Shown here: one piece after another, positions 6,604 through 39,966 of the stretch
Layout: every line of letters starts with the position of its first letter
Position numbering within the stretch: position 1 is the stretch's first letter
DNA from: Flavobacteriaceae bacterium GF1
Lineage (GTDB): Bacteria; Bacteroidota; Bacteroidia; Flavobacteriales; Flavobacteriaceae
NCBI GenBank assembly: GCA_009797885.1
Contig: WNKP01000002.1
Location: forward strand, 372,001-436,000
DNA: 64,000 nt
Direction of reading: 5' to 3'
The notes under the pieces: model-generated
Told to the model about the DNA's origin: nothing
Seen by the model: only the letters and a program-made list of their open reading frames with translations
Database searches by the model: none
Position numbers and translations under genes: made by a program

Positions 6604-6647
6604 TAAAATTAGGAGGGTAGGGATAGTAATACTATGACAATTATCAG
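6604..6647 (-). promoter_or_regulatory. FNR-like site plus -7 box, usp promoter
   Basis: Inverted repeat ATGACAATTATCAG at 6634-6647. On the minus strand TAATTTTA (6604-6611) forms the -7 box. The centre-to-box-end distance is 36.5 bp, the same as at nine other promoters in the window. Confidence 0.75.
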
Positions 6648-6665
6648 CTTTAAAGAAATGCTGTG

Positions 6666-7358
6666 TTAAAATCCTTCGGCCAAATCCCTTAGCTTTCGCT
6701 CGTCCTTAATGCCCACCTTCTTTCCAGAGGTATGGATCAACCCTTTCTTTTTAAATTCAGAAATGATCCTAATGGCAGATTCCGTGGCAGTACCTACAAC
6801 ATTGGCAATATCCTCACGTGAAAGTGTAAGGGCCAAAAACCCATCATTGTCTTCCCCAAAATTGTTCTTTAAATAAAGAAAGGCCTCCGCAATGCGCTGT
6901 TTCACGGTTTTTTGGCTCATATTGACAATAACGTCATCCGCTTCCTTGAGCTCATGGGCCATGTGCCTTAGAACTTCCAGGGTAAAGTTCGGATTTTTCT
7001 GTAATGTGGTGGTAATGCTTTCCTTGGGAATAAAACAAACATCCATGTCACTGACCGCGACAGCGGAGAGGTTGGAATGCTCTTCGGCAATAACGGACCT
7101 CTGGCCCATTACTTCCCCTTTGGTAGCTAGTTTTACAATTTGATCTTTACCGTTGGGACTGAGCTTGGAAAGTTTGGAAACTCCTGCTCTAACGCAATAG
7201 ACCCCATTGAGTTTTTCACCTTCTTCAAACAAGGGTTCCCCCTTTTTGACTGATTTTCTGATTTTGGAATCGGAGACTTTTTTCAATTCCTCCTTGTTCA
7301 TTGCCCGTAGGGAATTGAATTGCCGCACGATGCAATTCTCACATCTGCTATTATCCAT
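6666..7358 (-). CDS. Crp/Fnr-family regulator with FNR-like cysteines
   Basis: 230 residues: cyclic-nucleotide-type beta barrel (about 25-130), dimer helix, and C-terminal winged helix (LTLSREDIANVVGTATESAIRIISEF). Cysteines are C6 and C9 (RCENC), C55 (VYC) and C108 (DVCFIP). C108 aligns with the fourth cluster ligand of E. coli FNR (MVCEIP), and the N-terminal CxxC resembles FNR's, so an oxygen-labile Fe-S cluster is plausible but inferred. The recognition helix keeps E and R (TESAIR), fitting sites with TGA/TCA half-sites. It lies among genes with such sites and is the best candidate for their activator. Confidence 0.9.
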   Translation of the reverse strand: MDNSRCENCIVRQFNSLRAMNKEELKKVSDSKIRKSVKKGEPLFEEGEKLNGVYCVRAGVSKLSKLSPNGKDQIVKLATKGEVMGQRSVIAEEHSNLSAVAVSDMDVCFIPKESITTTLQKNPNFTLEVLRHMAHELKEADDVIVNMSQKTVKQRIAEAFLYLKNNFGEDNDGFLALTLSREDIANVVGTATESAIRIISEFKKKGLIHTSGKKVGIKDERKLRDLAEGF

Positions 7359-7419
7359 AATTTAAATTTACCTGACGTCTAAAATTAAGAGTTCTATAGC
7401 AAATAAAAACTGCAATTCT

Positions 7420-8106
7420 TTAGGAATTCCCAATTCTTTCCAGTCCCTCTTTGGAAAGAACATGAATTTCACTTCTTACAGTGTTTATGAGTCCAGCATT
7501 TTTAAAATTTGTGAGAAGGTTTATGACATATTCAGGTGATGTGCCCAGAACAGTTGCCATATCCTCCCTTTTCAGTCGTACCCAGAGCCTACCATTCCTA
7601 TCGGCTCCATATTTTTTTAGCAAGTACACCAAAAGATGCGCCAAACGTTGTTTGATGCCTTTATGGACACAGAAGATAATACGGGTGTATTCGTTGATAT
7701 TGACATCTTCGATAAGGACATCCAAAAAGTCTTGGAGGAATCCGGGATTCTCCCTTAAACTTTTCAAAAAAGTGTTTTTGTCCAAACAGCATAATTCAGT
7801 ATCGGAAAGGGCCACCGCACTAACCTCGGCGCCGTTGTTGGTAAGTAGGGAGCGTTTGCCCATTATTTCCCCCTTTCCCAAAAAACGGAGGACGTGCTCC
7901 TGTCCAATGTTGTCCACTTTACTGAATTTACATGCTCCCTTTTTTATACAATACAGTTTGTGCAATGGTTGGTTTTCCTTGAAAATGACCTTGCCTTTGG
8001 GAATGCTCAAGGATTCCGAGGTCCTCAGAAGTTCCTGCTTTACCTCGTTTGATAACGATTCAAAATCCTTTAATTGCCTGGACTGTAATTCTGTGCAGTT
8101 ACCCAT
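7420..8106 (-). CDS. Second Crp/Fnr-family regulator
   Basis: 228 residues from ATG at 8106 (MGNCTELQSRQL); upstream in-frame codons lie in the promoter region of the divergent ccoI gene. The beta barrel, dimer helix and winged helix (LKREDMATVLGTSPEYVINLLTNF) are intact. Cysteines are C4, C53 (LYC), C59 and C106-C107, so two positions match the neighbouring paralogue, but the N-terminal CxxC is missing. The recognition helix reads SPEYVIN, with Asn in place of the usual Arg, so its DNA preference may differ. The two regulators are tandem, 61 bp apart. It is divergent from ccoI, and the shared gap holds an FNR-like site. Confidence 0.88.
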   Translation of the reverse strand: MGNCTELQSRQLKDFESLSNEVKQELLRTSESLSIPKGKVIFKENQPLHKLYCIKKGACKFSKVDNIGQEHVLRFLGKGEIMGKRSLLTNNGAEVSAVALSDTELCCLDKNTFLKSLRENPGFLQDFLDVLIEDVNINEYTRIIFCVHKGIKQRLAHLLVYLLKKYGADRNGRLWVRLKREDMATVLGTSPEYVINLLTNFKNAGLINTVRSEIHVLSKEGLERIGNS

Positions 8107-8140
8107 AGCACAAAGGTACTTTTCTACGAATCCATAAAAG

Positions 8141-8184
8141 ATGACATAAGTCATATTTTTCCAAGGCACCTTATTCCATCTTTG
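8141..8184 (+). promoter_or_regulatory. FNR-like site plus -7 box, ccoI promoter
   Basis: Near-perfect inverted repeat ATGACATAAGTCAT (8141-8154) and -7 box CATCTTTG (8177-8184), centre to box end 36.5 bp. The expected transcript start is near 8188, which supports translation from ATG 8208 rather than from the upstream GTG at 8184. Confidence 0.8.
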
Positions 8185-8207
8185 TGTTCGGTATAATGCA
8201 AATGTGT

Positions 8208-10592
8208 ATGTCATCTTCAACCTGTTACCATTGTGGTGACCCTTGTGGGCGTACGGCTGTCCTATTTGATGAAAAAAACTTCTGCTGCAATGGTTGTAAG
8301 ACCGTATATGAAATTTTTCATAAGAGCGGATTGGAAGGGTATTACGATCTGGAAAGCGCGGCGGGGGCCACTCCCAAAGAGGTAGCCAATAAGTTTGATT
8401 TTTTGGAAAATCCGGAAGTGGCGGAGAAGCTACTGGATTTCAATGAGGACGGGATTCAGGTAGTTGAATTCCATATACCACATATGCACTGCAGTTCCTG
8501 TATCTGGGTGCTGGAAAATTTAAACAGATTGAGTTCTTTTATCAAAAGTTCCCAGGTTGATTTTCCAAAACGAAGGGCCAGGATAACCTTTGATAGTGAG
8601 GGGCTAAACCTAAAGGAACTTGCCATACTGTTGGCCAAAATAGGGTACGAGCCTTCCATTGTCCTTGAGGATTATTCCCAGGCAAAAAAGAAGGTGGACC
8701 GGAACCTTATCTATAAATTGGGAGTTGCCGGTTTTTCGTTTGGGAACGTAATGCTCCTTTCTTTTCCGGAGTATTTTGAAGTCCAGGAATATTGGTTGGA
8801 TCAATACAAAACCTTCTTTAGATGGTTGATGTTTTCCTTTTCCCTGCCCGTAGTTTTTTACGCTTCCCAGGATTATTTCACTTCGGCCTTTAAAGGATTG
8901 CGCTCCAAGTTGTTGAACATTGATGTTCCCATAGCTTTGGGAATCCTGACCTTGTTCATAAGAAGTACCGTGGATATTGTCTTTGATTTGGGTTCGGGCT
9001 TTTTTGATAGCCTTACCGGTTTGGTGTTCTTCTTATTGGTAGGACGGTTTTTTCAACAAAAAACCTATGCCCATCTATCGTTTGAGCGAGACTATAAATC
9101 CTATTTCCCCATTGGGGTAACGCGGGTAACCGATAGTGATGGGGAGGAGAACATCGAAATCTATAGGGTTAAACAGGGCGATAGGCTTTTGGTCCGTAAT
9201 CAGGAAATCATTCCTGTGGATTGCATCCTTATCCATGGACGCGCGCAGATAGATTACAGCTTTGTCACCGGGGAATCGGAATCCGTGCCCAAATCATCGG
9301 GCGATAAGTTGTTCGCCGGAGGCAAACAATTGGGCGGGGTACTTGAAATAGAGGCCATAAAATCCGTATCCCAGAGTTATCTTACCCAGCTGTGGAGCAA
9401 TTCTGCCTTTGCAAAAAATAAGGCCAGTGAATTCCAGACCCTAACCGACGCCATAGGTAAACGGTTCACTATTGCGGTTCTGACCATTGCCACCATTGCC
9501 ACATCGTACTGGTTGTGGCAGGACCCGTCAAAGGCGCTCAATGTCTTTACGGCGGTCCTGATCATCGCCTGTCCTTGTGCCATTGCGTTGGCCGCACCTT
9601 TCACCCTTGGAAACCTATTGCGGATTTTTGGTCGTAACGGTTTTTACCTTAAGGACACGAATACCATAGAAAGATTGGCCAAAATAGATACCGTTGTCTT
9701 TGATAAAACAGGGACACTGACTTCAAATTCCGGTAATACCATTGTCTATGAGGGTATGGAATTGACCGATGATGAAGCTTCTTTGCTCAAGAATACCTTA
9801 CGGGCTTCAAACCATCCCCTAAGCAGGGAATTGTACGGTATTTTGGAAAGTTGTCAGATAAAGACGTTGGATGAGTTTTCCGAACATACTGGAAAGGGGG
9901 TCAAGGGAAAACTCGGACAGCATACCATGAAAGTGGGATCGGCAAACTACGTAGGCACCCAAGAAGGGACCAGGACGGAAACATCGGTCCATATTAGTGC
10001 CGATGAAAATTATAAGGGCCGTTTTGTGTTCAAAAGCAAATACAGGGAAGGTCTGGTTACGCTCTTTAAAGGGCTCATGGGGAACTTTTCACTGGTGATT
10101 CTTTCCGGGGATAACGATGGGGAACGGAAAAAGTTGGAAAAAATGTTTCCTTTTCAACTCCCCATGTTTTTTGACCAAAAGCCAGAGGATAAACTCAAGT
10201 TCATTAAAAAATCACAAGAGCATGCAAATGTACTCATGGTAGGGGATGGACTCAATGATGCTGGTGCCTTGGCCCAAAGTAACGTGGGTATAGCGGTTTC
10301 GGAAAATGTAAATGTGTTTTCACCTGCCTGTGATGCTATTTTGGATGCTGGAAAGCTTACAGGGCTAGCTAGGTTCCTAAAGCTTTCCCAACAATCCATA
10401 GGAATCATAAAACTGAGTTTTTTATTGTCGCTTTGTTACAATGTGGTAGGCCTGTATTTTGCCGTGACCGGCCAGTTAAAACCTGTAATTGCGGCCATAT
10501 TGATGCCCTTGAGCTCCATTAGTATAGTGGTATTTACCACAATTGCCACCAATTATATAGGTTCAAAATTCAAAACGAAAACAGAAACGTAA
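8208..10592 (+). CDS. ccoI: Copper-transporting P1B-type ATPase for cbb3 oxidase assembly
   Basis: 794 residues from ATG 8208 (MSSSTCYHCG). A Cys-rich N-terminal metal-binding region (CYHCGDPCG, FCCNGCKTVYEIF) precedes an HMA domain with HMHCSSCIW near residue 93. The ATPase core follows: TGES near 354, ACPCAIALAAP transport motif near 454, DKTGTLTS near 499 and GDGLNDAGAL near 679, with about eight membrane helices. This is the FixI/CcoI type that exports copper for the oxidase and other periplasmic cuproenzymes. The cbb3 genes follow directly, and NosZ encoded nearby also needs copper. Confidence 0.95.
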   Translation: MSSSTCYHCGDPCGRTAVLFDEKNFCCNGCKTVYEIFHKSGLEGYYDLESAAGATPKEVANKFDFLENPEVAEKLLDFNEDGIQVVEFHIPHMHCSSCIWVLENLNRLSSFIKSSQVDFPKRRARITFDSEGLNLKELAILLAKIGYEPSIVLEDYSQAKKKVDRNLIYKLGVAGFSFGNVMLLSFPEYFEVQEYWLDQYKTFFRWLMFSFSLPVVFYASQDYFTSAFKGLRSKLLNIDVPIALGILTLFIRSTVDIVFDLGSGFFDSLTGLVFFLLVGRFFQQKTYAHLSFERDYKSYFPIGVTRVTDSDGEENIEIYRVKQGDRLLVRNQEIIPVDCILIHGRAQIDYSFVTGESESVPKSSGDKLFAGGKQLGGVLEIEAIKSVSQSYLTQLWSNSAFAKNKASEFQTLTDAIGKRFTIAVLTIATIATSYWLWQDPSKALNVFTAVLIIACPCAIALAAPFTLGNLLRIFGRNGFYLKDTNTIERLAKIDTVVFDKTGTLTSNSGNTIVYEGMELTDDEASLLKNTLRASNHPLSRELYGILESCQIKTLDEFSEHTGKGVKGKLGQHTMKVGSANYVGTQEGTRTETSVHISADENYKGRFVFKSKYREGLVTLFKGLMGNFSLVILSGDNDGERKKLEKMFPFQLPMFFDQKPEDKLKFIKKSQEHANVLMVGDGLNDAGALAQSNVGIAVSENVNVFSPACDAILDAGKLTGLARFLKLSQQSIGIIKLSFLLSLCYNVVGLYFAVTGQLKPVIAAILMPLSSISIVVFTTIATNYIGSKFKTKTET

Positions 10593-11025: not shown

Positions 11026-11069
11026 CTGATAAATGTCATTTTTTTCGATGAATCATAAAGGTAGTTTTA
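11026..11069 (+). promoter_or_regulatory. FNR-like site plus -7 box, ccoS-ccoNOQP promoter
   Basis: Inverted repeat CTGATAAATGTCAT (11026-11039) and -7 box TAGTTTTA (11062-11069), centre to box end 36.5 bp. It is placed to drive the whole cbb3 operon starting with ccoS at 11089. Confidence 0.8.
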
Positions 11070-11088: not shown

Positions 11089-11280
11089 ATGAGCGTAATT
11101 TATGTGTTACTGAGCATAAGTGTGTGTGTTGCTATTGTCTTTTTTGCAGCTTTCATCTTTACGGTCAGGAGCGGTCAATATGACGATTCCTATACACCGT
11201 CCGTCCGGATGCTTTTTGAAGATGAACTGGTGGATACTACCGATAAGAATAACAACCAAAATAAAAGTCAAACTGAATAA
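11089..11280 (+). CDS. ccoS: cbb3 oxidase maturation protein CcoS
   Basis: 63 residues with one N-terminal membrane helix (VIYVLLSISVCVAIVFFAAF) and the typical following stretch with RSGQYDDSYTPSVRMLFED. CcoS is needed to insert haem and copper into the cbb3 oxidase. It is the first gene of the oxidase operon, 2 bp before ccoNO, which is the usual Bacteroidota arrangement. Confidence 0.93.
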   Translation: MSVIYVLLSISVCVAIVFFAAFIFTVRSGQYDDSYTPSVRMLFEDELVDTTDKNNNQNKSQTE

Positions 11281-11282
11281 TT

Positions 11283-13484
11283 ATGGAAGTACAGCAATTT
11301 CACTACGATAATAAAATCGTACAAAAATTCCTCTATGCCACGATGCTATGGGGAGTTGTGGGAATGGTGGTGGGCCTTTTACTGGCCTTTATGTTTTTGT
11401 TTCCCAACCTGACCGACGGTATTTCATGGCTAAGTTTTGGACGTCTTCGTCCATTGCATACCAATGCCGTAATTTTTGCTTTTGTGGGTAACGCCATTTT
11501 CGCTGGGGTGTATTACTCCTTGCAGCGATTGTTAAAGGCGAGGATGTTCAGCGATGCACTGAGCAACATCAATTTTTGGGGTTGGCAGCTCATTATTGTG
11601 TCGGCCGCAATAACCCTTCCTTTGGGGATTACCACCTCAAAAGAATACGCAGAGCTGGAATGGCCCATAGATATTGCCATTGCTGTGATTTGGGTTGTTT
11701 TTGGTTGGAACATGATCGGTACGATCCTCAAACGGAGACAACGCCATTTATATGTGGCGATTTGGTTTTATATAGCCACTTTTGTCACGGTGGCGGTACT
11801 GCATATTTTCAATAGTCTGGAATTGCCCGTGGCCGCTTTAAAAAGTTATTCAGTATACGCTGGGGTTCAGGATGCCTTGGTTCAGTGGTGGTATGGACAT
11901 AATGCTGTGGCCTTCTTTTTGACTACTCCATTCTTGGGCCTTATGTATTACTTTGTGCCCAAGGCCGCAAATAGACCGGTATATTCCTATAGATTATCAA
12001 TTGTCCACTTTTGGTCCTTGATATTTATTTATATCTGGGCAGGACCGCACCATTTGTTGTACTCCTCATTACCGGATTGGGCCCAAAATCTTGGGGTTGT
12101 GTTTTCCGTAATGCTTATTGCACCTTCCTGGGGTGGTATGATCAACGGACTGTTGACCCTTAGGGGCGTTTGGGACAAAGTGCGGAGTGATGCTACATTG
12201 AAGTTTATGGTAGTAGCCATTACCGGTTATGGTATGGCCACTTTTGAAGGACCCATGTTGTCCCTAAAAAATGTAAATGCCATTGCCCACTTTAGTGACT
12301 GGGTCATTGCCCACGTACACGTTGGTGCCTTGGCGTGGAATGGCTTCCTCACCTTTGGTATGATTTATTATCTGGTGCCAAAGATGTTCAAGACCACTTT
12401 GTATTCCAAAGGGCTCGCCAACCTTCATTTCTGGATAGGCACCCTGGGTATCGTATTGTATGCTTTGCCCATGTACGTTGCCGGTTTTACACAAGCACTC
12501 ATGTGGAAAGAGTTTAATCCAGATGGAACTTTGGTATACGGTAACTTCTTGGAAACGGTACAACAGATCATCCCCATGTATTGGATGCGTGCCATTGGAG
12601 GTACCCTCTTTATTGTGGGAATGCTGATCATGGTATACAATGTTATCGTGACCATTAGAAAAGGAAGTGCGGTTGAGGATGAGTTGGCAGAGGCCCCTGC
12701 CTTGACAAGGGTCACTGGTAGAAGGACCGCAGGGGAAACCTTCCACACCTGGTTGGAACGAAGACCGGTTCAATTGACCATTTTGGCCACAGTGGCCATA
12801 TTGATTGGAGGGATCGTCCAGATTATCCCAACCTTATTGGTAAAATCCAATATCCCCACCATTACAAGTGTTAAACCCTATACTCCATTGGAGTTGGAAG
12901 GACGTGATCTTTATATCCGTGAAGGATGTGTGGGTTGCCACTCCCAAATGATTCGGCCCTTCCGCAGCGAAGTGGAACGTTATGGGGAGTATGCCAAAGC
13001 AGGGGAGTTTGTTTACGATCATCCTTTCCTTTGGGGAAGTAAGCGTACAGGACCTGATTTACTTCGAGTGGGAGGCAAATATTCGGACAACTGGCATTTG
13101 AACCATATGTACGATCCGCAAAGTACTTCCGCAGGATCCATTATGCCGGCCTATCAATGGTTGGTGAAGAATAAGCACGATAGAAGTGGTGTTGAAGCCA
13201 AAATGAATGCAATGGTGACCTTGGGCGTGCCTTACACGGATGAGGACATTACCAATGCACAGCAATCTATGGCAGAACAGGCACTTCAAATAGAGAAAAA
13301 CCTTTATAGCGATCCAGAATTTGTGAGGACCTACGAGGCGGATAAAAAGTATGCCCAGGAAAATGGGGAGGAGTTTGTGGAAATGCGCGATCGTGAGATT
13401 GTTTCCTTGATTGCCTATCTGCAAAGATTGGGTACGGATATAAAAGTAAAGGACAACGACGGTTTACTGTCAGAAAACAAATAA
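11283..13484 (+). CDS. ccoNO: cbb3 cytochrome oxidase, fused subunits I and II
   Basis: 733 residues. The first 470 are CcoN, the haem-copper catalytic subunit with about 12 membrane helices; the block around GPHHLLYSSLPDWAQ carries conserved His residues. After a linker, the C-terminal part is CcoO with one helix and a c-type haem site CVGCH at about residue 549. The subunits are separate genes in Proteobacteria; the fusion is normal in Bacteroidota. The enzyme is a high-affinity terminal oxidase used at low oxygen, consistent with the FNR-like promoter upstream of ccoS. Confidence 0.97.
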   Translation: MEVQQFHYDNKIVQKFLYATMLWGVVGMVVGLLLAFMFLFPNLTDGISWLSFGRLRPLHTNAVIFAFVGNAIFAGVYYSLQRLLKARMFSDALSNINFWGWQLIIVSAAITLPLGITTSKEYAELEWPIDIAIAVIWVVFGWNMIGTILKRRQRHLYVAIWFYIATFVTVAVLHIFNSLELPVAALKSYSVYAGVQDALVQWWYGHNAVAFFLTTPFLGLMYYFVPKAANRPVYSYRLSIVHFWSLIFIYIWAGPHHLLYSSLPDWAQNLGVVFSVMLIAPSWGGMINGLLTLRGVWDKVRSDATLKFMVVAITGYGMATFEGPMLSLKNVNAIAHFSDWVIAHVHVGALAWNGFLTFGMIYYLVPKMFKTTLYSKGLANLHFWIGTLGIVLYALPMYVAGFTQALMWKEFNPDGTLVYGNFLETVQQIIPMYWMRAIGGTLFIVGMLIMVYNVIVTIRKGSAVEDELAEAPALTRVTGRRTAGETFHTWLERRPVQLTILATVAILIGGIVQIIPTLLVKSNIPTITSVKPYTPLELEGRDLYIREGCVGCHSQMIRPFRSEVERYGEYAKAGEFVYDHPFLWGSKRTGPDLLRVGGKYSDNWHLNHMYDPQSTSAGSIMPAYQWLVKNKHDRSGVEAKMNAMVTLGVPYTDEDITNAQQSMAEQALQIEKNLYSDPEFVRTYEADKKYAQENGEEFVEMRDREIVSLIAYLQRLGTDIKVKDNDGLLSENK

Positions 13485-13488: not shown

Positions 13489-13689
13489 ATGTTGAAGTTT
13501 GTAAAAAGCCATATGGAAAGTATCGATGGGATTGCAACCTATCCCATGATATCACTATTGATATTCTTTGTGTTCTTCGCCCTGCTTTTTTGGTGGGTGT
13601 TTACCGCAAGCAAATCCCATATTAAGGAAATGGGCGAACTGCCCTTGGATAATGACCAACCAATAAATAAAGAAAGTTATGATGTCTAG
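13489..13689 (+). CDS. ccoQ: CcoQ-like small oxidase subunit
   Basis: 66 residues with one membrane helix (PMISLLIFFVFFALLFWWVF) and a polar tail. Position between ccoNO and ccoP, size and topology match CcoQ/FixQ, which stabilises the oxidase complex. Sequence similarity in this class is low, so the call rests mainly on context. It overlaps ccoP by 11 bp. Confidence 0.8.
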   Translation: MLKFVKSHMESIDGIATYPMISLLIFFVFFALLFWWVFTASKSHIKEMGELPLDNDQPINKESYDV

Positions 13690-14623
13690 AACACCTTGGT
13701 GGATACGAATCCCAGTATTGTTTTTCATCGTCTTCGGATTGATGGAGTACTTCATTGATTCCGGTGACAAACCGGCCATCATTGAATATCCGATCACCCA
13801 GTTTTTTATGCTGATGGTCCTATTGATTTTGATAGCCATCGAAGTCATTTTGAAATCCATAGAAAACGTCATGTTCCAAACCTTGTCCGCCGATGCGCAA
13901 GAACGATATCTGGAGGCAAAGAACAGGAAAGTCGAGTTCAAATGGCTGGACAACATCTACAAGAGATTAACGAGGAGTCGCTCCATTGAAAAGGAAGGGG
14001 AGATTATTTTGGATCACAATTACGATGGTATTCGGGAATTGGACAATGTATTGCCCCCATGGTGGGTCTATATGTTCTATGTGACCATCATATTTGGGTT
14101 GGTCTATTTGGTACGTTTCCATATCGTTGGGGACTATACCCAGGCGATAGAGTATGAAAATGAGGTGGCCGAGGCCAAAATCGCAATTGAGGAGTATAAG
14201 AAGACAGCAAAGAATTTGGTGGATGTGAATACCGTGGAAGTGCTTACGGATGCCTCTGATTTATCGGCAGGTGAAAAAATCTTCACGGCAAATTGTGTGG
14301 TTTGCCATATGGCAGATGGTGGGGGAGGTATTGGTCCAAACCTCACCGATGAATACTGGATTTTGGGCGGGGGCATAAAAAATGTGTTCCGTACCATTTC
14401 GGAAGGAGGACGTGACGGTAAGGGAATGGTCGCATGGAAAAATAGCTTAAAGCCCGTGGAAATGGCCCAGGTGGCAAGCTATCTATTGCAGTTCCAAGGC
14501 ACCACGCCGGCAAATCCAAAAGCACCGGAAGGGGAAATTTGGGTGGACCCGGATGCACCTTCCGAACCGGAAGAAGCGCCGGCGGAACAGGCACAGGATT
14601 CCACTATCGTGGCAATGAATTAA
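13679..14623 (+). CDS. ccoP: cbb3 oxidase subunit III, single-haem CcoP
   Basis: 314 residues. Two N-terminal membrane helices are followed by a third near 120-140 after the typical YDGIRELDNVLPPWW segment, then a cytochrome c domain with CVVCH at about residues 206-210. Proteobacterial CcoP has two CxxCH sites; only one is visible here. The C terminus is a Pro/Ala/Glu-rich tail. It donates electrons from soluble cytochrome c or the bc1-type complex to CcoO. The start is ATGATG; either Met is possible. Confidence 0.95.
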   Translation: MMSRTPWWIRIPVLFFIVFGLMEYFIDSGDKPAIIEYPITQFFMLMVLLILIAIEVILKSIENVMFQTLSADAQERYLEAKNRKVEFKWLDNIYKRLTRSRSIEKEGEIILDHNYDGIRELDNVLPPWWVYMFYVTIIFGLVYLVRFHIVGDYTQAIEYENEVAEAKIAIEEYKKTAKNLVDVNTVEVLTDASDLSAGEKIFTANCVVCHMADGGGGIGPNLTDEYWILGGGIKNVFRTISEGGRDGKGMVAWKNSLKPVEMAQVASYLLQFQGTTPANPKAPEGEIWVDPDAPSEPEEAPAEQAQDSTIVAMN

Positions 14624-14687: not shown

Positions 14688-16097
14688 ATGGAAGAAAATT
14701 TTAGGGATTCAATAGGAACTATTACCGCAGACGGGAAAAGGGCTTGGGTGTATCCTAAAAAGCCTAGCGGCAGATTTTTCGAGTATCGGAAATACGTCAG
14801 CTATGGCTTGCTCTTGTTTCTTTTTGCAGCCCCTTTTGTAAAAATCAATGGAAATCAGTTTTTGATGTTCAATGTTTTGGAACGTCGATTTAACATCTTT
14901 GGTTTCCCATTTTGGCCCCAGGATTTTCATCTGTTTGTGATTTCCATGATTTTAGGGGTGATTTTTATTGCCCTTTTTACAGTGGCCTTTGGCAGGATTT
15001 TTTGTGGTTGGATCTGTCCCCAGACCATTTTTATGGAAATGGTGTTCCGTAGGATAGAATATTGGATAGATGGTGACCGTGGTGCCCAGATGCGATTGCA
15101 AAAGGCACCTTGGACAACTAAGAAGATTAGAAAACGGGTATTGAAATGGACCATTTTCTTCATCATATCCTTTTTAATTGCAAATATCTTTTTGGCCTAT
15201 TTAATAGGCAGTGACCGTTTGTTGCAGTATATAGTTGATGGACCTTTGGCACATTTGGGTACCATAATTCCATTGCTCATCTTCACAGCGGTATTCTATT
15301 TTGTTTTTGCTTGGTTCCGTGAACAGGTGTGTATAATCGCCTGTCCCTATGGGAGATTGCAAGGGGTGCTTTTGGATGATAGGTCCATTGTTGTAGCCTA
15401 TGACCACAAAAGGGGAGAAGGACCGAGTGGAAGGAAAAAGTTTAGAAAGAATGAAGACCGGGAGGCCCTTGGACATGGGGATTGCATAGATTGTTTCCAA
15501 TGTGTGCACGTATGTCCTACGGGAATTGATATTAGGAATGGAACCCAGTTGGAGTGCGTAAACTGTACGGCTTGTATTGATGAGTGTGACCATATTATGG
15601 AAAGTATCAATAGGCCCAAGGGATTGATTCGTTACGCCAGTGAACGTGAAATCACCCACAACGAGAAGTTTAGGTTTACGGCAAGGATGAAAGGCTATGC
15701 GGCGGTATTGACCATTTTGGTCGGGGTGCTCGTTGGGATGCTGTTCCTCCGTAATGATTTGGAAGCAAATATTTTTAGATTGCCCGGGCAGCTTTATGAA
15801 CGAAAGGCAAACAATATGATCAGCAATGTCTATACCTATAAGTTGGTGAACAAGACTACTGAGACCATTGAAAATGTAAGTTTTAAGCTCCTTTCACATA
15901 ATGGGAACATCAATATGGTATCCAACGATACCTTCAAAGTACCGGCCCAGGATTTGGCAGAAGGGACCTTATTTATTGAAATAAACAACGCGGCCCTAAC
16001 AGGGGACAAGGACAAGTTGGAAATTGGTGTATACAGTGGGGGTGAATTGATTGAAACCACCGTTACCCAATTTTTGGCACCTAGGAGCTATAATTGA
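14688..16097 (+). CDS. ccoG: cbb3 oxidase accessory ferredoxin-type protein
   Basis: 469 residues. Several membrane helices, with conserved CGWICPQTIFMEMVFR, EQVCIIACPYGRLQG, and two [4Fe-4S] motifs (CIDCFQCVHVCPTGID and CVNCTACIDECD) near residues 265-308, followed by a C-terminal Ig-like FixG domain. CcoG/RdxA reduces copper for cbb3 assembly in the bacteria where it has been studied. It lies 64 bp after ccoP in the same direction. Confidence 0.95.
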   Translation: MEENFRDSIGTITADGKRAWVYPKKPSGRFFEYRKYVSYGLLLFLFAAPFVKINGNQFLMFNVLERRFNIFGFPFWPQDFHLFVISMILGVIFIALFTVAFGRIFCGWICPQTIFMEMVFRRIEYWIDGDRGAQMRLQKAPWTTKKIRKRVLKWTIFFIISFLIANIFLAYLIGSDRLLQYIVDGPLAHLGTIIPLLIFTAVFYFVFAWFREQVCIIACPYGRLQGVLLDDRSIVVAYDHKRGEGPSGRKKFRKNEDREALGHGDCIDCFQCVHVCPTGIDIRNGTQLECVNCTACIDECDHIMESINRPKGLIRYASEREITHNEKFRFTARMKGYAAVLTILVGVLVGMLFLRNDLEANIFRLPGQLYERKANNMISNVYTYKLVNKTTETIENVSFKLLSHNGNINMVSNDTFKVPAQDLAEGTLFIEINNAALTGDKDKLEIGVYSGGELIETTVTQFLAPRSYN

Positions 16098-21548: not shown

Positions 21549-21592
21549 TGAAGTTACGTGTACTTCCTTTGGATTAACATGATAAAAGTCAG
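21549..21592 (-). promoter_or_regulatory. FNR-like site, CBS gene promoter
   Basis: Inverted repeat ATGATAAAAGTCAG (21579-21592). At the standard 36.5-bp distance the minus strand reads TAACTTCA (21549-21556), a partial match to TAnnTTTG, so this is the weakest of the ten spaced sites. Confidence 0.55.
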
Positions 21593-24343: not shown

Positions 24344-24642
24344 TAACGAATAATAAGGAATTTGGAGTCTTCCAAAGCTTCTACCCAATGCGGTATATTC
24401 TTGGGAAAACTAAATTCTTGTTGTTCCATCAGGTTTATGGGATTTCCCTCGATATAAAAGGTGATTTTACCTTCCATAACGATCAAATGGGCATCTTCAT
24501 GGGATTTATGTGTGGGGAAAACGGCATTTTTGGCAATACTGATGCTCAACACTTCAAAACGGCTGCTTTTTACCAGTTGCTTGACCTGTACACCTTCAAA
24601 GGACTGATTGGCAATGGTATTATTTACATTGATGGTATACAT
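24343..24642 (-). CDS. Small cupin-fold protein of the nos operon
   Basis: 99 residues with a single conserved beta-barrel cupin: FPTHKSHEDAHLIVMEGKITFYIEG and later QEFSFPKNIPHWVEAL. His residues in motif 1 (TH..HEDAH) and motif 2 (PHW) could hold a metal. No signal peptide is seen. It lies between nosL and nosD, 18 bp after nosL, so it belongs to the operon; a role as cytoplasmic copper or metal sensor/chaperone is possible but not shown. Confidence 0.8.
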   Translation of the reverse strand: MYTINVNNTIANQSFEGVQVKQLVKSSRFEVLSISIAKNAVFPTHKSHEDAHLIVMEGKITFYIEGNPINLMEQQEFSFPKNIPHWVEALEDSKFLIIR

Positions 24643-28922: not shown

Positions 28923-28966
28923 CAAAAATAATGGTGGTTATTTATGAAAAATATGATTTATGTCAT
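28923..28966 (-). promoter_or_regulatory. FNR-like site plus -7 box, nos operon promoter
   Basis: Inverted repeat ATGATTTATGTCAT (28953-28966) with minus-strand -7 box TATTTTTG (28923-28930), centre to box end 36.5 bp. The divergent Rrf2 gene is served by a separate -7 box 42.5 bp on the other side. Confidence 0.8.
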
Positions 28967-28994
28967 ATAAAGGATAAAAATGTCTTTTAATCTT

Positions 28995-29002
28995 TACATT
29001 TG
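28995..29002 (+). promoter_or_regulatory. -7 box of the Rrf2 gene
   Basis: TACATTTG, a perfect TAnnTTTG box, 12 bp upstream of the Rrf2 ATG (29014). The FNR-like site in the same gap is 6 bp too far for class II activation in this direction. Confidence 0.6.
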
Positions 29003-32298: not shown

Positions 32299-32661
32299 TT
32301 AGGACAGCTCAGGGGGATGAATTATCTTGAAAGCAAGAAGAAGGGCGTGCAAGTTTTGCGAAAATCCAATTGGATTGTTCTTATGATGGGCCCTTATTTC
32401 AAAATCAATGGAATTGGAAGTGCTACCAATTGGCAATAGCAATGGGATTTCCAGCATTTGTAGTTCACCAAATGGATTCTTGTGATGGTTTCTGGATTCT
32501 TCGGCCAACATTTTGGATAAATAGCATTTGCCATCGCATTCCAGTTGGGGCCTGTTTTTGTTTTCGCAAAGGTTGGTGACGATATAATTGTAATTGATAA
32601 TGTATTCGGCTACGGGCCATAATGGTTTTACCATCATGATAAAAATGAGCGGTATGGCCAT
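32299..32661 (-). CDS. Small membrane protein with CDGKCYL motif, before copper receptor
   Basis: 120 residues from ATG 32661. The first in-frame GTG (32673) would lie at the predicted transcript start (about 32674), so the ATG is preferred. One N-terminal helix, then LECDGKCYLSKML, a CxxxC motif that recurs in small Flavobacteriia proteins next to receptors, and a His-containing tail (HHKNPF, AHHKNN). The Cys and His residues suggest metal binding, most likely copper given the neighbouring receptor. Function is not established. Confidence 0.75.
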   Translation of the reverse strand: MAIPLIFIMMVKPLWPVAEYIINYNYIVTNLCENKNRPQLECDGKCYLSKMLAEESRNHHKNPFGELQMLEIPLLLPIGSTSNSIDFEIRAHHKNNPIGFSQNLHALLLAFKIIHPPELS

Positions 32662-32677
32662 AAGCTGTTTCACGCTT

Positions 32678-32721
32678 CAAAAGTAGGGGGTATGCGGAAG
32701 GGAAAAACTGACTTTTATCAT
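32678..32721 (-). promoter_or_regulatory. FNR-like site plus -7 box, copper receptor operon promoter
   Basis: Inverted repeat CTGACTTTTATCAT (32708-32721) with perfect minus-strand -7 box TACTTTTG (32678-32685), centre to box end 36.5 bp. Confidence 0.8.
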
Positions 32722-32801: not shown

Positions 32802-33623
32802 TTATAGTTTAAAGGTAACCACAGGTATTTTACTGTGGTTGGCAATATCCTCTCCAATACTTCCCATAAAGAAGTGGGAAAGTCCCTGCCTTCCGTGCGT
32901 GGGTATACCAATTAAATCGGCGGCATTGGACTCAGCATAATTCAGGACGCCTTTTTCAACGCTGTAATCGTTATAGATATCGACTTCCAATCCCAACATG
33001 GCGATATTCAAAAATTTGGAAATACGGCTGTAGGCATCTTCCGTACTTAGAAAGGCATCCGCGGGTGTATTGATGTATACCAGTTTAAGTTCTGCACCCA
33101 GTAATTTGGCAAATTCAACGGCCTTTTTCACTGCCGGTACACTTTCTTCCTTAAAATCACTAGCGAAAATAAAGCGTTCGGCCTTGAAGTTTTCCACTTC
33201 TCCCTTAACTACCAAAACCGGGATTTCGGAGCTGCGCACCACGCGTTCCGTATTGGAGCCAATAAATAGTTCCTGAAGGCCATCCGTACCATGCGATCCC
33301 ATCACTATTAGATCAATTTCGTGCTTTTCGGCCACGTTGTTGATTTCACTAAGTACCTTATAGTGCTTAATGATCGGAGTGACGTTTACATCCTTTAAAT
33401 AGTCTTTTGCCAGAAACTCCGAAAAACGTTTTTCCGTAAGCTTCATTAAGTGGACAATATGCTCTTGGGGCAAATATTCGCCACTGCTCATAATAGCAGG
33501 GGAAAGTTCCAGCATATGGAGTACAAACAGCTCCGAATCGATTTTTTTGGCCAAGTTGGCCGCTACTTTTAGGGCAACTTCGGATTGTTCCGAAAAATCT
33601 ATGGGTACAATTATACTTTTCAT
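32802..33623 (-). CDS. Universal stress protein, tandem UspA domains
   Basis: 273 residues. Domain 1 starts MKSIIVPIDFSEQSEVALKVAA and carries GSHGTDGLQELFIGSNTE, the nucleotide-binding motif. Domain 2 keeps THGRQGLSHFFMGSIGED near the C terminus, so both halves may bind nucleotide. It lies 37 bp after hemN in one transcript, which explains low-oxygen control through the hemN promoter. Confidence 0.95.
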   Translation of the reverse strand: MKSIIVPIDFSEQSEVALKVAANLAKKIDSELFVLHMLELSPAIMSSGEYLPQEHIVHLMKLTEKRFSEFLAKDYLKDVNVTPIIKHYKVLSEINNVAEKHEIDLIVMGSHGTDGLQELFIGSNTERVVRSSEIPVLVVKGEVENFKAERFIFASDFKEESVPAVKKAVEFAKLLGAELKLVYINTPADAFLSTEDAYSRISKFLNIAMLGLEVDIYNDYSVEKGVLNYAESNAADLIGIPTHGRQGLSHFFMGSIGEDIANHSKIPVVTFKL

Positions 33624-33660: not shown

Positions 33661-35019
33661 TTAAACAGTCATGGAAAACAGACGGGTTTCCGGCTGCTTT
33701 CGGTGTAATTTTAGATCAAATGCCATACTTATATTTCTAATGAATGGTCTTCCTTTTTCCGTCACTTCAATGCTATTGGGACCTATGTGGACCAATCCAT
33801 CCGTCTCCAATTCGCGCAGATTGTCCATAATGTGCCCAAAGTCCAAATGTTGGGTCTGTTCAACGTCCCAAGAGGTGGTAAAGTGGCACATTAAATTTAA
33901 GATATGTTTGCGGATCAATTTGTCCTCTTCATTCAAAATATGTCCGCGATACACAGGAACAATATCGTGTGCTATTAAATGTTGGTATTCTTCAATGCTC
34001 TTCACATTTTGGGCAAAAGCATGCCAGCTGTCGCTTATGCTACTTGCCCCAAGTCCAATCATTAACTGGGTTTTGGAAGGGGTGTATCCCATAAAATTCC
34101 GGTGTAAGGTCCCTTTCTCTATGGCTAGGTAAAGGTCATCCGATTCCACCGCAAAATGATCCATTCCAATTTCCTTGTAGCCTTTGGCCAACAACCATTG
34201 TTTCCCAATTTCATACTGCAGTTTTTTATCCTCCGTATTGGGAAGGTCGCTATCCAGGTATCCGCGCTGTCCGTTTCCCTTTCGCCAGGGAACATGGGCA
34301 TAGCTATAAAAGGCGATACGATCGGGCCTTATTATATTGGTATATTCAATGGTGTTCTTAACATCATCCACGGATTGGAATGGTAGTCCGTAGACCAAAT
34401 CGTGACCAACGGAGGTATAACCAACCTCCCTTGCCATTTCCGTTACGGACTTCACCTTTTCGAAAGGTTGTATCCGATTTATGGCCAACTGTACGTTTTC
34501 GTTATAGTCCTGTACACCAAAGCAAACCCTTCTAAACCCCAGATCATAGAGGGCCTGTAAGTGTGCTTTGGTCGTATTGTTTGGGTGTCCTTCAAAGCTT
34601 AGTTCGGCGTCGGGAGCCCTATCGGCAAACCTAAATATACCATTAATGAGGCGGGTCAGGTTTTCCGGCGAAAAAAAAGTGGGTGTTCCTCCACCAAGAT
34701 GTAGTTCCTTAATCAAAGGTTTTTGCCCAAGAATATCCCGGTAAAGTACCCATTCCTTAAGTAATGTGTTGATATAAGGTGCTTCTACCTCGTGTTTTTT
34801 GGTAATTCGTTTATGACAACCACAAAAAGTGCACATACTTTCACAAAAGGGGAGATGTATATAAACACTTATGCCCTCTTTTCCAGACTCATCAAAACGT
34901 TGCCTTACACTTTCCTTCCATTTTTTACCGGAGAAACAATCCCCATCCCAGTACGGGACAGTTGGATAGCTGGTATAACGCGGGCCGGGAACATTATATT
35001 TGCTCGTTAAATTGCACAT
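33661..35019 (-). CDS. hemN: Oxygen-independent coproporphyrinogen III oxidase
   Basis: 452 residues. Radical-SAM cysteines C59, C63 and C66 in FCESMCTFCGC, GGGTPTFFS, and the HemN-type C-terminal domain with GLGASSISDSW. The N-terminal KYNVPGPRYTSYPT is typical of true HemN, not HemW. It makes protoporphyrinogen without oxygen, needed for haem in cbb3 and cytochromes under low oxygen. A perfect FNR-like site at the common distance lies upstream. Confidence 0.97.
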   Translation of the reverse strand: MCNLTSKYNVPGPRYTSYPTVPYWDGDCFSGKKWKESVRQRFDESGKEGISVYIHLPFCESMCTFCGCHKRITKKHEVEAPYINTLLKEWVLYRDILGQKPLIKELHLGGGTPTFFSPENLTRLINGIFRFADRAPDAELSFEGHPNNTTKAHLQALYDLGFRRVCFGVQDYNENVQLAINRIQPFEKVKSVTEMAREVGYTSVGHDLVYGLPFQSVDDVKNTIEYTNIIRPDRIAFYSYAHVPWRKGNGQRGYLDSDLPNTEDKKLQYEIGKQWLLAKGYKEIGMDHFAVESDDLYLAIEKGTLHRNFMGYTPSKTQLMIGLGASSISDSWHAFAQNVKSIEEYQHLIAHDIVPVYRGHILNEEDKLIRKHILNLMCHFTTSWDVEQTQHLDFGHIMDNLRELETDGLVHIGPNSIEVTEKGRPFIRNISMAFDLKLHRKQPETRLFSMTV

Positions 35020-35037: not shown

Positions 35038-35081
35038 CAAAAGTATCGGCGTTCAACCAAAGAAAATATGATAAATATCAT
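35038..35081 (-). promoter_or_regulatory. FNR-like site plus -7 box, hemN promoter
   Basis: Perfect inverted repeat ATGATAAATATCAT (35068-35081) with perfect minus-strand -7 box TACTTTTG (35038-35045), centre to box end 36.5 bp. Confidence 0.85.
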
Positions 35082-35107: not shown

Positions 35108-35151
35108 CTGATAATTGTCATGTTTTCAACGCCGACGGATCGTTAGATTTG
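35108..35151 (+). promoter_or_regulatory. FNR-like site plus -7 box, GCS2-CBS promoter
   Basis: Inverted repeat CTGATAATTGTCAT (35108-35121) with perfect -7 box TAGATTTG (35144-35151), centre to box end 36.5 bp. It is 40 bp from the hemN site, so each divergent gene has its own. Confidence 0.8.
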
Positions 35152-35177
35152 TTAAAAAGAAGCTCCTTATGGGAGAA

Positions 35178-38266: not shown

Positions 38267-38989
38267 CTATTGCATCATAAAATTAATAGGGATACTATAG
38301 CCAACTTTTGCTGGACGGCCACGCTGCATTCCCGGCTTCATCTGTGGAAGTGAAGCTATAATTCGAACAGCTTCCTCTTCCAAAAGGCGGTCTGGTCCAC
38401 GTTTTCTAATGCCGGAAACTTTACCGGTACCATCAATTTCGAACTGTACGAAGACCCTTCCACTTATGCCCATTTCCAAGGCAGTTTTCGGATAATTAAA
38501 ATTCTTTTGAATATGTTCCTGGATTTTTCGGTTAAAGCAAGCTTTACGTTCCGCTTCACTGCCCAGGTTTTCACAGCCTGGAAATACGGGAACGTTTTCA
38601 ATAACCGCAAATGGAACCAAAATCTCTTCCTCTTCCTCTCCAACATCGACATCATCAACACTTACAACTTCCTCAACAAACGTATCCTGGCTACTTTCGG
38701 TACTTTCAATGATGGTCTCTTCCACTTCTTCCATATCCTCTACAACTTCTATCACATCAGGAGTTGTTGGTGGCGGTGGAGGTGGAGGTGTCTTTATGAG
38801 TTCAGTGATGGGCACTTCTTCATCCATTTCATCCATTACATTCAATACATTGACGAATTCTTCATCGGAGACATAGGTTTTGTGCTCCAACATTCGCCAA
38901 GTGGCAAACAATACTATAGTCAGCCCAATTACAAAATATAGGCCACTATTTCGATTTAGATCGGCTTTTGGGTTTTTCTTGACTTCCAT
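38267..38989 (-). CDS. tonB: TonB energy-transducer protein
   Basis: 240 residues from ATG 38989 (MEVKKNPKADLNRNSGLYF), a start typical of Flavobacteriia TonB; the ATG at 39001 is only about 8 bp from the predicted transcript start. One N-terminal helix, Pro-rich stretch KTPPPPPPPTTPD, long acidic region, and C-terminal TonB domain (YPKTALEMGISGRVFVQFEID). It couples inner-membrane energy to TonB receptors, presumably including the copper receptor. An FNR-like promoter suggests a TonB dedicated to low-oxygen conditions. Confidence 0.95.
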   Translation of the reverse strand: MEVKKNPKADLNRNSGLYFVIGLTIVLFATWRMLEHKTYVSDEEFVNVLNVMDEMDEEVPITELIKTPPPPPPPTTPDVIEVVEDMEEVEETIIESTESSQDTFVEEVVSVDDVDVGEEEEEILVPFAVIENVPVFPGCENLGSEAERKACFNRKIQEHIQKNFNYPKTALEMGISGRVFVQFEIDGTGKVSGIRKRGPDRLLEEEAVRIIASLPQMKPGMQRGRPAKVGYSIPINFMMQ

Positions 38990-39012
38990 GACATTTAACA
39001 TTTATTTGTTGA

Positions 39013-39056
39013 TAAAAGTAGAATTCATATGCCGGAAAAAACATGATATTTATCAA
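39013..39056 (-). promoter_or_regulatory. FNR-like site plus -7 box, tonB promoter
   Basis: Inverted repeat ATGATATTTATCAA (39043-39056) with minus-strand -7 box TACTTTTA (39013-39020), centre to box end 36.5 bp. Confidence 0.75.
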
Positions 39057-39075
39057 GTTTCCAATTTTATGACCA

Positions 39076-39813
39076 CTATTTTGAGGAATCAGCAAAATCT
39101 GACTGGGTGAGATCCTCCGGATTTCTTTTAAAGAATAGGGTTTTTAAATGAATGGCTACCCTTAGTCTATCAAAGTTTTTTTTGCCTACATGGGTTTTAA
39201 AATATCCGAACTCCATGGAAACATCCTTACCCAGTTTTCTCCCAATACCCACAAAAAATCGGTTTTGGTCAATATAGAGTTCATCAAAATTGAAAAACGG
39301 TTCGTCCGTACACTTAATATAATAGGTAGTACCAAGTCTTTGTTTAAAACCAAGTCTATAGCGTAACCTGGTGTTGAAGATGTTTTTGGTGGGTTTGTCG
39401 ATCCACCGGTGTTCCATCCGCAACCTATGTTGTAGTGTTCCCGTTTTTATCGTGGCTTGTTCATAGACCCAGACCTGGGTGGTCAAGGTTTCGAATTCAT
39501 GATGGTACAAAGGTTGTGAGTCGACGTAGGCAGTACCCAGGGTTAATTTTAAGGTAGGGCTTGTTTTATACGTCAATCCCGTCCTGACAAACCCGAATTC
39601 CGTTTGTTCGGCCCAATTCTCATAGCATAAAATGGCCACTACTGGTACACTCCATTTTTCGGATAGTTGGTTGTCCATGGAGAACACCATCCAGCTACCA
39701 ATATCGGTCTTGGTGTTTTCTTGACCGTGGATACCCACGATTGATAAAAGGAAAAAGGTTTGGAGTAAAAGACTTCGCAGTCTGTTTGGGGGTTTCACTG
39801 ATGGATTTCCCAT
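39076..39813 (-). CDS. DUF2490-type outer membrane beta-barrel protein
   Basis: 245 residues with signal peptide (about 1-30, ending VGIHGQ) and a string of alternating beta strands (WMVFSMDNQLSEKWSVPVV, TGLTYKTSPTLKLTLGTAYV, LQHRLRMEHRW, FNTRLRYRLGFKQRL). This is the DUF2490 family, small outer-membrane barrels of unknown role. It ends within the tonB promoter region. An FNR-like repeat at 39866-39879 lies upstream, but the -7 box is not convincing. Confidence 0.85.
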   Translation of the reverse strand: MGNPSVKPPNRLRSLLLQTFFLLSIVGIHGQENTKTDIGSWMVFSMDNQLSEKWSVPVVAILCYENWAEQTEFGFVRTGLTYKTSPTLKLTLGTAYVDSQPLYHHEFETLTTQVWVYEQATIKTGTLQHRLRMEHRWIDKPTKNIFNTRLRYRLGFKQRLGTTYYIKCTDEPFFNFDELYIDQNRFFVGIGRKLGKDVSMEFGYFKTHVGKKNFDRLRVAIHLKTLFFKRNPEDLTQSDFADSSK

Positions 39814-39865
39814 GCTATGTTGTTAAAAAACGGGTGCAAGTTCCCCCTCATATTTTTTGCAAATA

Positions 39866-39879
39866 ATGACATCTATCAT
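39866..39879 (-). promoter_or_regulatory. FNR-like repeat before the DUF2490 gene
   Basis: ATGACATCTATCAT, a good inverted repeat 53 bp upstream of the ATG, but the sequence at the standard distance (GAACTTGC or GGAACTTG) is a poor -7 box. The site may still act. Confidence 0.45.
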
Positions 39880-39922
39880 GTGGTGTTATGAAAACTTTAA
39901 AATGAAATGAAAAACAGGAAAC

Positions 39923-39966
39923 CTGATATCCATCATGTTTTAGGATTGGGATGGATTATACTTTTG
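39923..39966 (+). promoter_or_regulatory. FNR-like site plus -7 box, usp-SLC13 promoter
   Basis: Inverted repeat CTGATATCCATCAT (39923-39936) with perfect -7 box TACTTTTG (39959-39966), centre to box end 36.5 bp. Confidence 0.8.

Follow-up and report, generated by a model that had tools for sequence, protein, structure and literature searches.

On the sequence evidence assembled here, the window (the whole stretch of 64,000 nucleotides analysed) contains ten inverted repeats that are very probably the operators of class II activator promoters, read by a regulator of the Crp/Fnr type and most likely by the FNR-like protein A encoded among them. Flavobacteria, some of which reduce N2O, are abundant marine bacteria; to our knowledge, their switch to low-oxygen respiration has been little studied, and no prior operator position for a flavobacterial Fnr was found in the open-access literature as covered by titles and abstract openings. 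The one-base-exact rule of operator and box would enable regulon predictions from sequence in the genomes of the family, those of this marine flavobacterium and its relatives.

Promoters of the window

The ten 14-mers of the initial annotation are all present, each having a TAnnTTTG-like box exactly 22 bp past the end of the repeat. The distance of 36.5 bp from repeat centre to last box base, as originally claimed, holds at 10/10 sites; the numbers listed there are first bases: each is the left end of a 14-mer, the centre lying 6.5 further on. The box retains all six fixed letters of TAnnTTTG at six of the ten sites, in agreement with the annotation, and is imperfect at the other four (weakest, 4/6). 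Two repeats, at 8141 and 28953, have a second box on the opposite strand (5/6 and 4/6, respectively). The promoters, the genes downstream of them and the two regulator genes are given below, with box scores out of six.

6604..6647, minus strand: box TAATTTTA at 6604-6611 (5/6) and operator CTGATAATTGTCAT at 6634-6647, upstream of a Usp gene (5685-6581)
8111..8154, minus strand: box TACCTTTG at 8111-8118 (6/6) and operator ATGACTTATGTCAT at 8141-8154, in front of the FNR-like genes B (7420-8106) and, after it, A (6666-7358)
8141..8184, plus strand: operator ATGACTTATGTCAT in the other direction and box CATCTTTG at 8177-8184 (5/6), in front of a gene for a P-type ATPase of the CcoI type
11026..11069, plus strand: operator CTGATAAATGTCAT at 11026 and box TAGTTTTA at 11062-11069 (5/6), in front of a CcoS-like ORF of 63 aa (11089-11280) followed by fused COX1/FixO (11283-13484), FixP (13679-14623), FixG (14688-16097) and FixH (16230-16676)
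21549..21592, minus strand: box TAACTTCA at 21549-21556 (4/6, the weakest) and operator CTGACTTTTATCAT at 21579, upstream of a CBS-domain gene (21104-21523)
28923..28966, minus strand: box TATTTTTG at 28923-28930 (6/6) and operator ATGACATAAATCAT at 28953, upstream of a cytochrome c gene (28393-28899) followed by fasciclin (27793-28380), nitrous oxide reductase (25800-27761), NosL (24661-25089), NosD (23105-24388) and, as far as 21623, ABC transporter genes
28953..28996, plus strand, uncertain: operator ATGACATAAATCAT and weak opposite box AATCTTTA at 28989-28996 (4/6), upstream of an Rrf2 regulator gene (29014-29445)
32678..32721, minus strand: box TACTTTTG at 32678-32685 (6/6) and operator ATGATAAAAGTCAG at 32708, upstream of 32299-32673 (no Pfam family) and a TonB-dependent receptor gene (29955-32219)
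35038..35081, minus strand: box TACTTTTG at 35038-35045 (6/6) and operator ATGATATTTATCAT at 35068, upstream of a radical SAM gene (33661-35019), which we take to be HemN-like, and a Usp gene (32802-33623)
35108..35151, plus strand: operator CTGATAATTGTCAT at 35108 and box TAGATTTG at 35144-35151 (6/6), upstream of a CBS-domain gene (ATG at 35169, ORF to 37016)
39013..39056, minus strand: box TACTTTTA at 39013-39020 (5/6) and operator TTGATAAATATCAT at 39043, upstream of a TonB_C gene (38267-39001)
39923..39966, plus strand: operator CTGATATCCATCAT at 39923 and box TACTTTTG at 39959-39966 (6/6), upstream of a Usp gene (40004-40795)
6666..7358, minus strand: regulator A, a 230-aa FNR-like protein (cNMP_binding + HTH_Crp_2)
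7420..8106, minus strand: regulator B, a second FNR-like protein, directly upstream of A, with its start codon 4 nt past the box

The low-oxygen targets originally proposed, cbb3 oxidase and nos genes, are indeed found downstream of sites. Genes B and A, judging from their order and strand, would share one transcript. The ccoI ORF is listed as 8184-10592, but its true start must lie past the box; leader length was not measurable in 55/70 of the relatives' loci, the query having started inside the box.

Repeats retaining at least nine of the ten fixed letters number 18 in the window; nine of them have a box of at least 5/6, all among the annotated ten, and a box of 4/6 is present at 38988 and 46440 besides 21579. 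The perfect 10/10 14-mers at 1774 and 39866 have no box at that gap. Over the 36 oriented window sites, boxes of at least 5/6 occur 10 times at this gap, as compared to 0.33 times on average, and never more than 3, at the 69 other gaps. The chance level of the combination, which the annotation had made the test of its claim, proved low: by the criterion of an intact GAY..RTC with a box of at least 4/6, the real window has 13 sites and 30 Markov-made windows have 0.17 on average.

Position and recurrence of the spacing

A published start-site map of Flavobacterium psychrophilum places the box at -12 to -5 and describes it as being of the housekeeping type (PMC9723704). Combined with the 36.5 bp, this would put the repeat centre at -41.5, the classical class II position, so that the class II geometry originally suggested would fit, given a start position that we infer from the box of another species. 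The stretch from -33 to -30 reads TTTT in 8/10 annotated promoters and retains two of the four positions in the other two. A T-rich -33 element is part of the Bacteroidota housekeeping promoter, and both features of that promoter, the box (itself a selection criterion) and the T-rich -33, are thus found in the window. A longer palindrome that includes an A-tract (-53 to -50) appeared convincing in 274 promoters of the 80 relatives; it was dropped because five orthologous groups dominate that set and our genome's own eight strict A/T-core promoters are at background for the A-tract (1.4 of 4 positions), which leaves the T-tract as the one element retained.

Counts from the loci of 80 relatives are not independent, since the loci share orthologous promoters and 246/274 aligned promoters come from five gene groups; with that dependence, a site with a box of at least 5/6 lies upstream of the usp (5685-6581) orthologue in 74/75 loci where the gene was found, site and box lie upstream of ccoN in 66/68 such loci, two-sided sites with boxes on both sides (as at 8141) occur in 52/80, gaps of 22, 23 and 24 measured from a 12-mer occur 2, 65 and 3 times, and no base exceeds 43% between -29 and -13.

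The genome-wide search that had been called for returned the strict pattern 19 times at this gap, as compared to 14 times at the 30 further gaps tested taken together; reversed-pattern controls in the same genome gave 0 for the strict pattern and 3 with the gap left free. Thirteen of the 19 lie outside the window, where 13/26 free-gap matches fall at this gap (binomial p ~3e-13, taking the 31 gaps as equally likely). Past the box, an ORF of at least 60 aa starts within 4 to 232 nt at 19/19 strict matches, only starts beyond the box being considered here and in the relatives' loci.

The rule extends to the family. In 60 genomes, one per genus, 479 matches occur at this gap and 20.7 at each other gap, the latter being the low number expected by chance; at least one match is present in 57/60 genomes, and the reversed control of the strict pattern gives 9 in all. 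The fixed operator-to-box distance expected of a class II promoter is thus found in these family counts. The 37 genomes that match protein A with at least 200 bits show a 24.9-fold excess, and the 17 with only a weaker Crp/Fnr match a 22.7-fold one. The excess is not significant (3 vs 1.17 expected, p 0.12, all gaps again taken as equally likely) in the six genomes without a protein A match at E 0.001, a group with small or incomplete members (1.5 to 3.4 Mb; 4/6 are 86 to 93% complete). The family-wide excess tracks the presence of Crp/Fnr relatives. Outside the class, 223 genomes gave 113 matches, 28 of them from one genome (reversed control, 12), and more than one match was found in 6/17 genomes encoding an A-like protein (E cut-off of about 1e-38, set by eye) vs 11/206 others, a weak link.

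Candidate regulators

Protein A combines the cNMP-binding-like domain and HTH_Crp of FNR, the oxygen-sensing Crp/Fnr protein with an oxygen-labile [4Fe-4S] cluster. Its Cys6, Cys9, Cys55 and Cys108 are invariant in 81/81 sequences, as are Glu193 and Arg197 of the recognition helix; Glu and Arg of this helix serve TGA half-sites. The FNR ligands are the cysteines at positions 20, 23, 29 and 122. In the alignment to an FNR of solved structure (residues 5-227 of A), Cys6, Cys9 and Cys108 fall on three of these four and FNR Cys29 aligns to Asn15. With Asn at that position and the invariant Cys55 elsewhere, A is called FNR-like, not FNR; its structure model (mean pLDDT 67.6) is not good enough to show if these four cysteines come together. 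The gene at 6666-7358, originally named as the regulator, stands as the most likely source of activation in the window, but the spacing rule is not its property alone: the 17 genomes without a clear ortholog show a similar excess. Genomes without A keep both geometry and A/T cores (AWWT; average per genome 1.9 without and 3.4 with protein A), and the motif alone therefore does not name the regulator.

Two further candidates are encoded elsewhere in the genome. The receiver-cNMP-HTH_Crp proteins Ca and Cb each adjoin a PAS histidine kinase, and their islands contain 23 promoters of the same geometry at 21 sites. It could be, though we consider it unlikely, that the geometry is of class II and that B or such a kinase-driven receiver-domain Crp mainly reads the window promoters, with A in a minor or partial role. 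The spacing kept in genomes without A speaks for this, as do the island promoters and the recognition-helix residues ATE..IR common to A, Ca and Cb. The island operators are nevertheless unlike those of the window: their cores mostly contain at least 2 G+C of 4, where window cores mostly contain none (Mann-Whitney p 4e-5), and TTTT at -33 to -30 is found in 0/6 island and 6/6 window promoters among the strict matches. The T-tract adjoining the repeat thus goes with the window sites, which corrects an earlier reading. Elsewhere the split is not clean, 3/7 other own strict promoters having an A/T core. A search of the 60 family genomes with a G+C-core pattern was too strict to separate operator types; it matched in 11/60, several of the hits resembling another sequence (TGATATAGGTCAA). 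As regards B, its helix has Asn in place of A's Arg; it was found in 12/80 relatives' loci, interdependent as these are; where the helix is visible (11 loci), 10 have Asn and one has Ser, and sites persist in loci where B was not found. The first ATG of B lies exactly 4 nt past the box in 11/12 loci and would be +1 if the transcript starts 5 nt past the box.

A wider reading is possible and is offered tentatively, all its parts taken jointly: one single-base-rigid spacing grammar may serve several Crp/Fnr branches. An FNR-like branch, its Fe-S held by relocated cysteines 6, 9, 55 and 108, might read TGAYAWWTRTCA followed by the T-tract, and kinase-controlled receiver-Crp proteins might recognise a palindrome with a YR centre and a higher G+C content (about TGAYCYRGRTCATTTCC), each branch acting at -41.5 of the phylum-specific promoter. 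A single palindrome might also serve a divergent pair of -41.5 promoters, and for one regulator gene the transcript might start, leaderless, at the ATG.

Proposed mechanism and known systems

In the mechanism we favour, a Crp/Fnr dimer would occupy the palindrome (centre at -41.5), immediately adjacent to the -33 element, and contact the housekeeping RNA polymerase sitting on the TAnnTTTG box; a rigid contact of dimer and polymerase would fix the spacing to one base. Protein A, its own gene downstream of such a site, is the most likely activator in the window and probably senses oxygen or redox state via its four invariant cysteines. With falling oxygen, A would switch on the cbb3 oxidase and its maturation, N2O reduction and universal stress proteins, and also the radical SAM enzyme and TonB-related uptake. 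What the sequences establish is the geometry with its excess and its link to Crp/Fnr genes, the gene content and the conserved cysteines; activation as opposed to repression, the identity of the activator and oxygen as the signal are what we infer.

Crp/Fnr proteins can repress, and the repeat might then be a repressor operator or roadblock. This is very unlikely considering that the repeat is clear of box and predicted start, that it coincides in position with E. coli FNR at class II activated promoters, and that hundreds of promoters keep its spacing to the exact base, for which repression would have no need. Sigma factors likewise give a fixed distance between two elements, yet a single long promoter of an alternative sigma factor is extremely unlikely: a symmetric palindrome of the FNR type forms the upstream element, genomes in which no relative of A was found show no significant excess, and the box is of the housekeeping type in the start-site map (PMC9723704). 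That the sites are copies of a single promoter cassette, duplicated or mobile, can practically be dismissed: several sites do cluster in one island, but the spacers of our genome's promoters differ from one another in their bases, and the strict sites, 19 in number, are spread over six contigs before unrelated genes.

The class II activator promoters thus preferred can be set beside known regulators. Among solved chains, the FNR-type regulator of PDB 5e44/5cvr (presumably FNR of Aliivibrio fischeri) and its relatives are among the closest to A, after 2gau (a Crp/Fnr protein); compared with it, A has Asn15 for ligand Cys29 and the invariant Cys55 where FNR has Ala. HcpR2 of Bacteroides and Porphyromonas is likewise FNR-like and from Bacteroidota, and differs in its predicted operator (GTAACnnnnGTTAC, and another in P. 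gingivalis) and in a regulon of hcp only in most Bacteroides (PMC1274295). BT4338, a Crp-family direct activator of Bacteroides thetaiotaomicron in the same phylum, also has its palindrome upstream of a promoter box, the -7 box; it responds to carbon limitation through the operator wwwTATGTTnTAnAACATAwww, and the available part of the report contains no spacing rule (PMC6989115). For E. coli FNR, 19/23 activated promoters with known start have the site at -41.5 plus or minus 4 (PMC3688515). The flavobacterial promoters resemble E. coli class II FNR promoters in the predicted -41.5 centre beside an upstream promoter element, the TGAY half-site and the low-oxygen targets. They differ in the Bacteroidota TAnnTTTG box instead of the -10 hexamer, in the T-tract at -33 to -30, in a box spacing fixed to one base, and in an outer operator base that is mostly A or C (ATGAY/CTGAY), the E. 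coli half-site consensus being TTGAT. The class II geometry of E. coli would thereby be extended to a phylum whose promoter box is of another type.

Repeat and promoter box at a fixed distance

The fixed geometry of repeat and promoter box is a sound observation, and a stronger one than the initial annotation could know. All ten inverted repeats proposed from inspection of the window (14-mers resembling ATGAY-N4-RTCAT) are present in its sequence, and in 10/10 the repeat centre lies the claimed 36.5 bp from the last base of a TAnnTTTG-like box, the box standing exactly 22 bp past the 14-mer. The positions listed for them (6634, 8141, 11026, 21579, 28953, 32708, 35068, 35108, 39043 and 39923) are the first bases of the 14-mers, not their centres. 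Six boxes are perfect, as reported; three others match five of the six fixed letters and one (21579) matches four. At 8141 a usable box stands on either side of the repeat. Among the 18 window sites with at least 9/10 repeat letters, the nine having a box of at least 5/6 all belong to these ten. Over 36 oriented window sites, such boxes number 10 at the 22-bp gap, compared to a mean of 0.33 and a maximum of 3 at 69 other gaps. Perfect 14-mers at 1774–1787 and 39866–39879 have no box; the latter precedes the 39923 operator by 57 bp, which puts it at −98.5 relative to the start predicted for that operator.

The genome-wide search proposed at the outset was run on 5.28 Mb, window included, with the gap counted from the 12-mer TGAYN4RTCA, so that the 22 bp measured from the 14-mer become gap 23. 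The strict pattern TGAYN4RTCA-N23-TANNTTTG has 19 matches, its reversed control 0, and at 19/19 an ORF of at least 60 aa starts 4–232 nt past the box (starts beyond the box considered). With the gap left free from 8 to 38, 19 of 33 matches fall at gap 23, none at 22, two at 24 and at most three at any other; the reversed control gives 3. When the window is excluded, gap 23 accounts for 13 of the 26 free-gap matches.

From mapped starts in F. psychrophilum, PMC9723704 reports −12 to −5 as the position of the sigma-A box TAnnTTTG; with the last box base at −5, the 36.5 bp would put the repeat centre at −41.5. Two features agree with the start position so predicted. The commonest base at the predicted +1 in relatives' promoters is A (51%). 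In 11 of the 12 loci having regulator B, its first ATG stands exactly 4 nt past the box (in the window at 8106, minus strand), so that the predicted mRNA would begin at the ATG, leaderless. TTTT occupies −33 to −30 in 8/10 window promoters (the remaining two have 2/4 T); this T-tract coincides with the −33 promoter element and adjoins the repeat. The N4 core is without G or C in 9/10 window operators.

Distribution and dependence on Crp/Fnr proteins

Around orthologs of regulator A, the protein of gene 6666–7358, 80 named loci hold 65 matches at gap 23 versus a mean of 0.41 at 51 other gaps, counts that are not independent because the loci share orthologous promoters. Their 274 distinct promoter sequences have a core without G or C in 255, T at 68–88% from −33 to −30, and no base above 43% from −29 to −13. 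An A-tract at −53 to −50 seen in them was dropped, being absent as a feature of the genome's own promoters. One palindrome has boxes of at least 5/6 on both sides, at equal distance, in 52/80 loci (56/230 sites), mostly the palindrome that separates ccoI from the regulator genes (window counterpart 8141–8154). Perfect two-sided sites occur in 22/299 family genomes (reversed control 0), with none in the source genome of the window.

In 60 family genomes, one per genus, 479 matches at gap 23 compare with 621 over 30 other gaps (20.7 per gap); the strict pattern is present in 57/60, with 9 reversed-control matches in total. Across the phylum, at least one strict match was found in 123/296 genomes: the source genome, 29/29 other family members, 5/6 in the order, 31/37 in the class and 57/223 beyond it, where 40 of the 57 positive genomes carry one match only. 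One distant genome outside the class has 28 strict matches and encodes a protein resembling A at 39% identity.

Assigning the sites to one protein, A, as the initial annotation would have liked, is supported only in part. We grouped the 60 family genomes by a search with A. The 37 with a clear ortholog (at least 200 bits) have 365 matches at gap 23, 24.9 times the other gaps. The 17 with a weaker match only reach nearly the same excess (111 matches, 22.7 times). The six without a match at E 0.001, some of them small or incomplete, show no significant excess (3 matches vs 1.17 expected, p 0.12) and include all three family genomes without any strict match. The geometry therefore tracks Crp/Fnr proteins, not A alone.

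HTH_Crp_2 scores above its Pfam cut-off in five regions of the source genome. These are A, B, a region with an internal stop (on genome piece C59) and two receiver-domain proteins, which lie in two islands of genome piece C11.

Receiver-Crp proteins and their islands
L108:10662–11732 (C11): receiver-cNMP-HTH_Crp protein, receiver N-terminal, adjoining a PAS histidine kinase
L110:6909–7958 (C11): the same domain order, likewise adjoining a PAS histidine kinase
C11, about 94–122 kb and 643–672 kb: the two islands

Twenty-one sites in the islands account for 23 promoters that share the window spacing and have boxes of at least 5/6; neighbouring genes code for stress proteins (Usp, Hsp20, FtsH, DnaJ, BON), cation transport and efflux. 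Their operators are centred on a pyrimidine-purine step (91% each), flanked by C or G in 43–48%, and have a weak TTTCC toward the promoter; a longer consensus is not claimed for them. Their cores are richer in G+C than those of window operators (p 4e-5), and TTTT at −33 to −30 occurs in 0/6 strict island matches versus 6/6 in the window. Seven further strict promoters elsewhere in the genome are mixed between the two operator types. Judged by position, the receiver-Crp proteins would pair with the island operators, and FNR-like A with those of the window.

Predicted targets and regulators

Predicted targets in the window (CcoI, CcoS and HemN are names we presume beyond the Pfam output)
Usp: separate target
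7420–8106 (−), regulator B, and 6666–7358 (−), regulator A: target group
CcoI-type ATPase: separate target
CcoS-like ORF (11089–11280, 63 aa), fused COX1/FixO, FixP, FixG, FixH: one target group
Cytochrome c and nitrous oxide reductase, NosL, NosD, ABC genes: one target group
Radical SAM (HemN-like) and Usp: target group
CBS protein: two separate targets
TonB-dependent receptor; TonB; further Usp: targets

The CcoS-like ORF lies between the operator and ccoN. The box-to-ccoN distance is 211–252 nt in 65/66 relatives, which a similar ORF there would explain; the ORF itself was sought in the window. The target set fits the response of F. psychrophilum to oxygen limitation, for which PMC9723704 describes raised cbb3 oxidase and heme synthesis.

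Gene A encodes a Crp/Fnr protein of 230 aa, 100% identical to that of a metagenome-assembled Croceivirga sp. (Flavobacteriaceae). Its Cys6, Cys9, Cys55 and Cys108 are invariant in 81/81 sequences. Aligned to FNR of solved structure, Cys6/Cys9/Cys108 correspond to Cys20/Cys23/Cys122, Asn15 takes the place of Cys29, and Cys55 faces Ala. With the FNR ligands taken to be Cys20, Cys23, Cys29 and Cys122, three are kept in A, Cys29 is absent and Cys55 is extra; on account of this changed cysteine set we call A FNR-like. Oxygen sensing by A may be inferred from these residues, with Cys55 possibly a relocated Fe-S ligand. B has Cys at the place of Cys55 in 11/12 sequences.

Gene B, directly upstream of A, is found in 12/80 loci at 42% identity or more; where A's recognition helix has Arg, B has Asn in 10 and Ser in 1 of the 11 with the helix visible. 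A site with a box of at least 5/6 lies within 450 nt upstream of B in 12/12 loci and of A in 39/80, the remaining loci having none within that distance of A itself. Autoregulation would fit the loci with an upstream site.

Relation to known class II promoters

For E. coli, PMC3688515 gives 19/23 sites at −41.5 ± 4 among direct FNR-activated promoters with a known start. The operator position of −41.5 predicted here, by way of the box position in F. psychrophilum, would coincide with theirs. Among the titles and abstract openings listed from an open-access library, none gives an operator position for a flavobacterial Fnr. The predicted mechanism would be class II activation, already known, working on a different promoter box with variant regulators.
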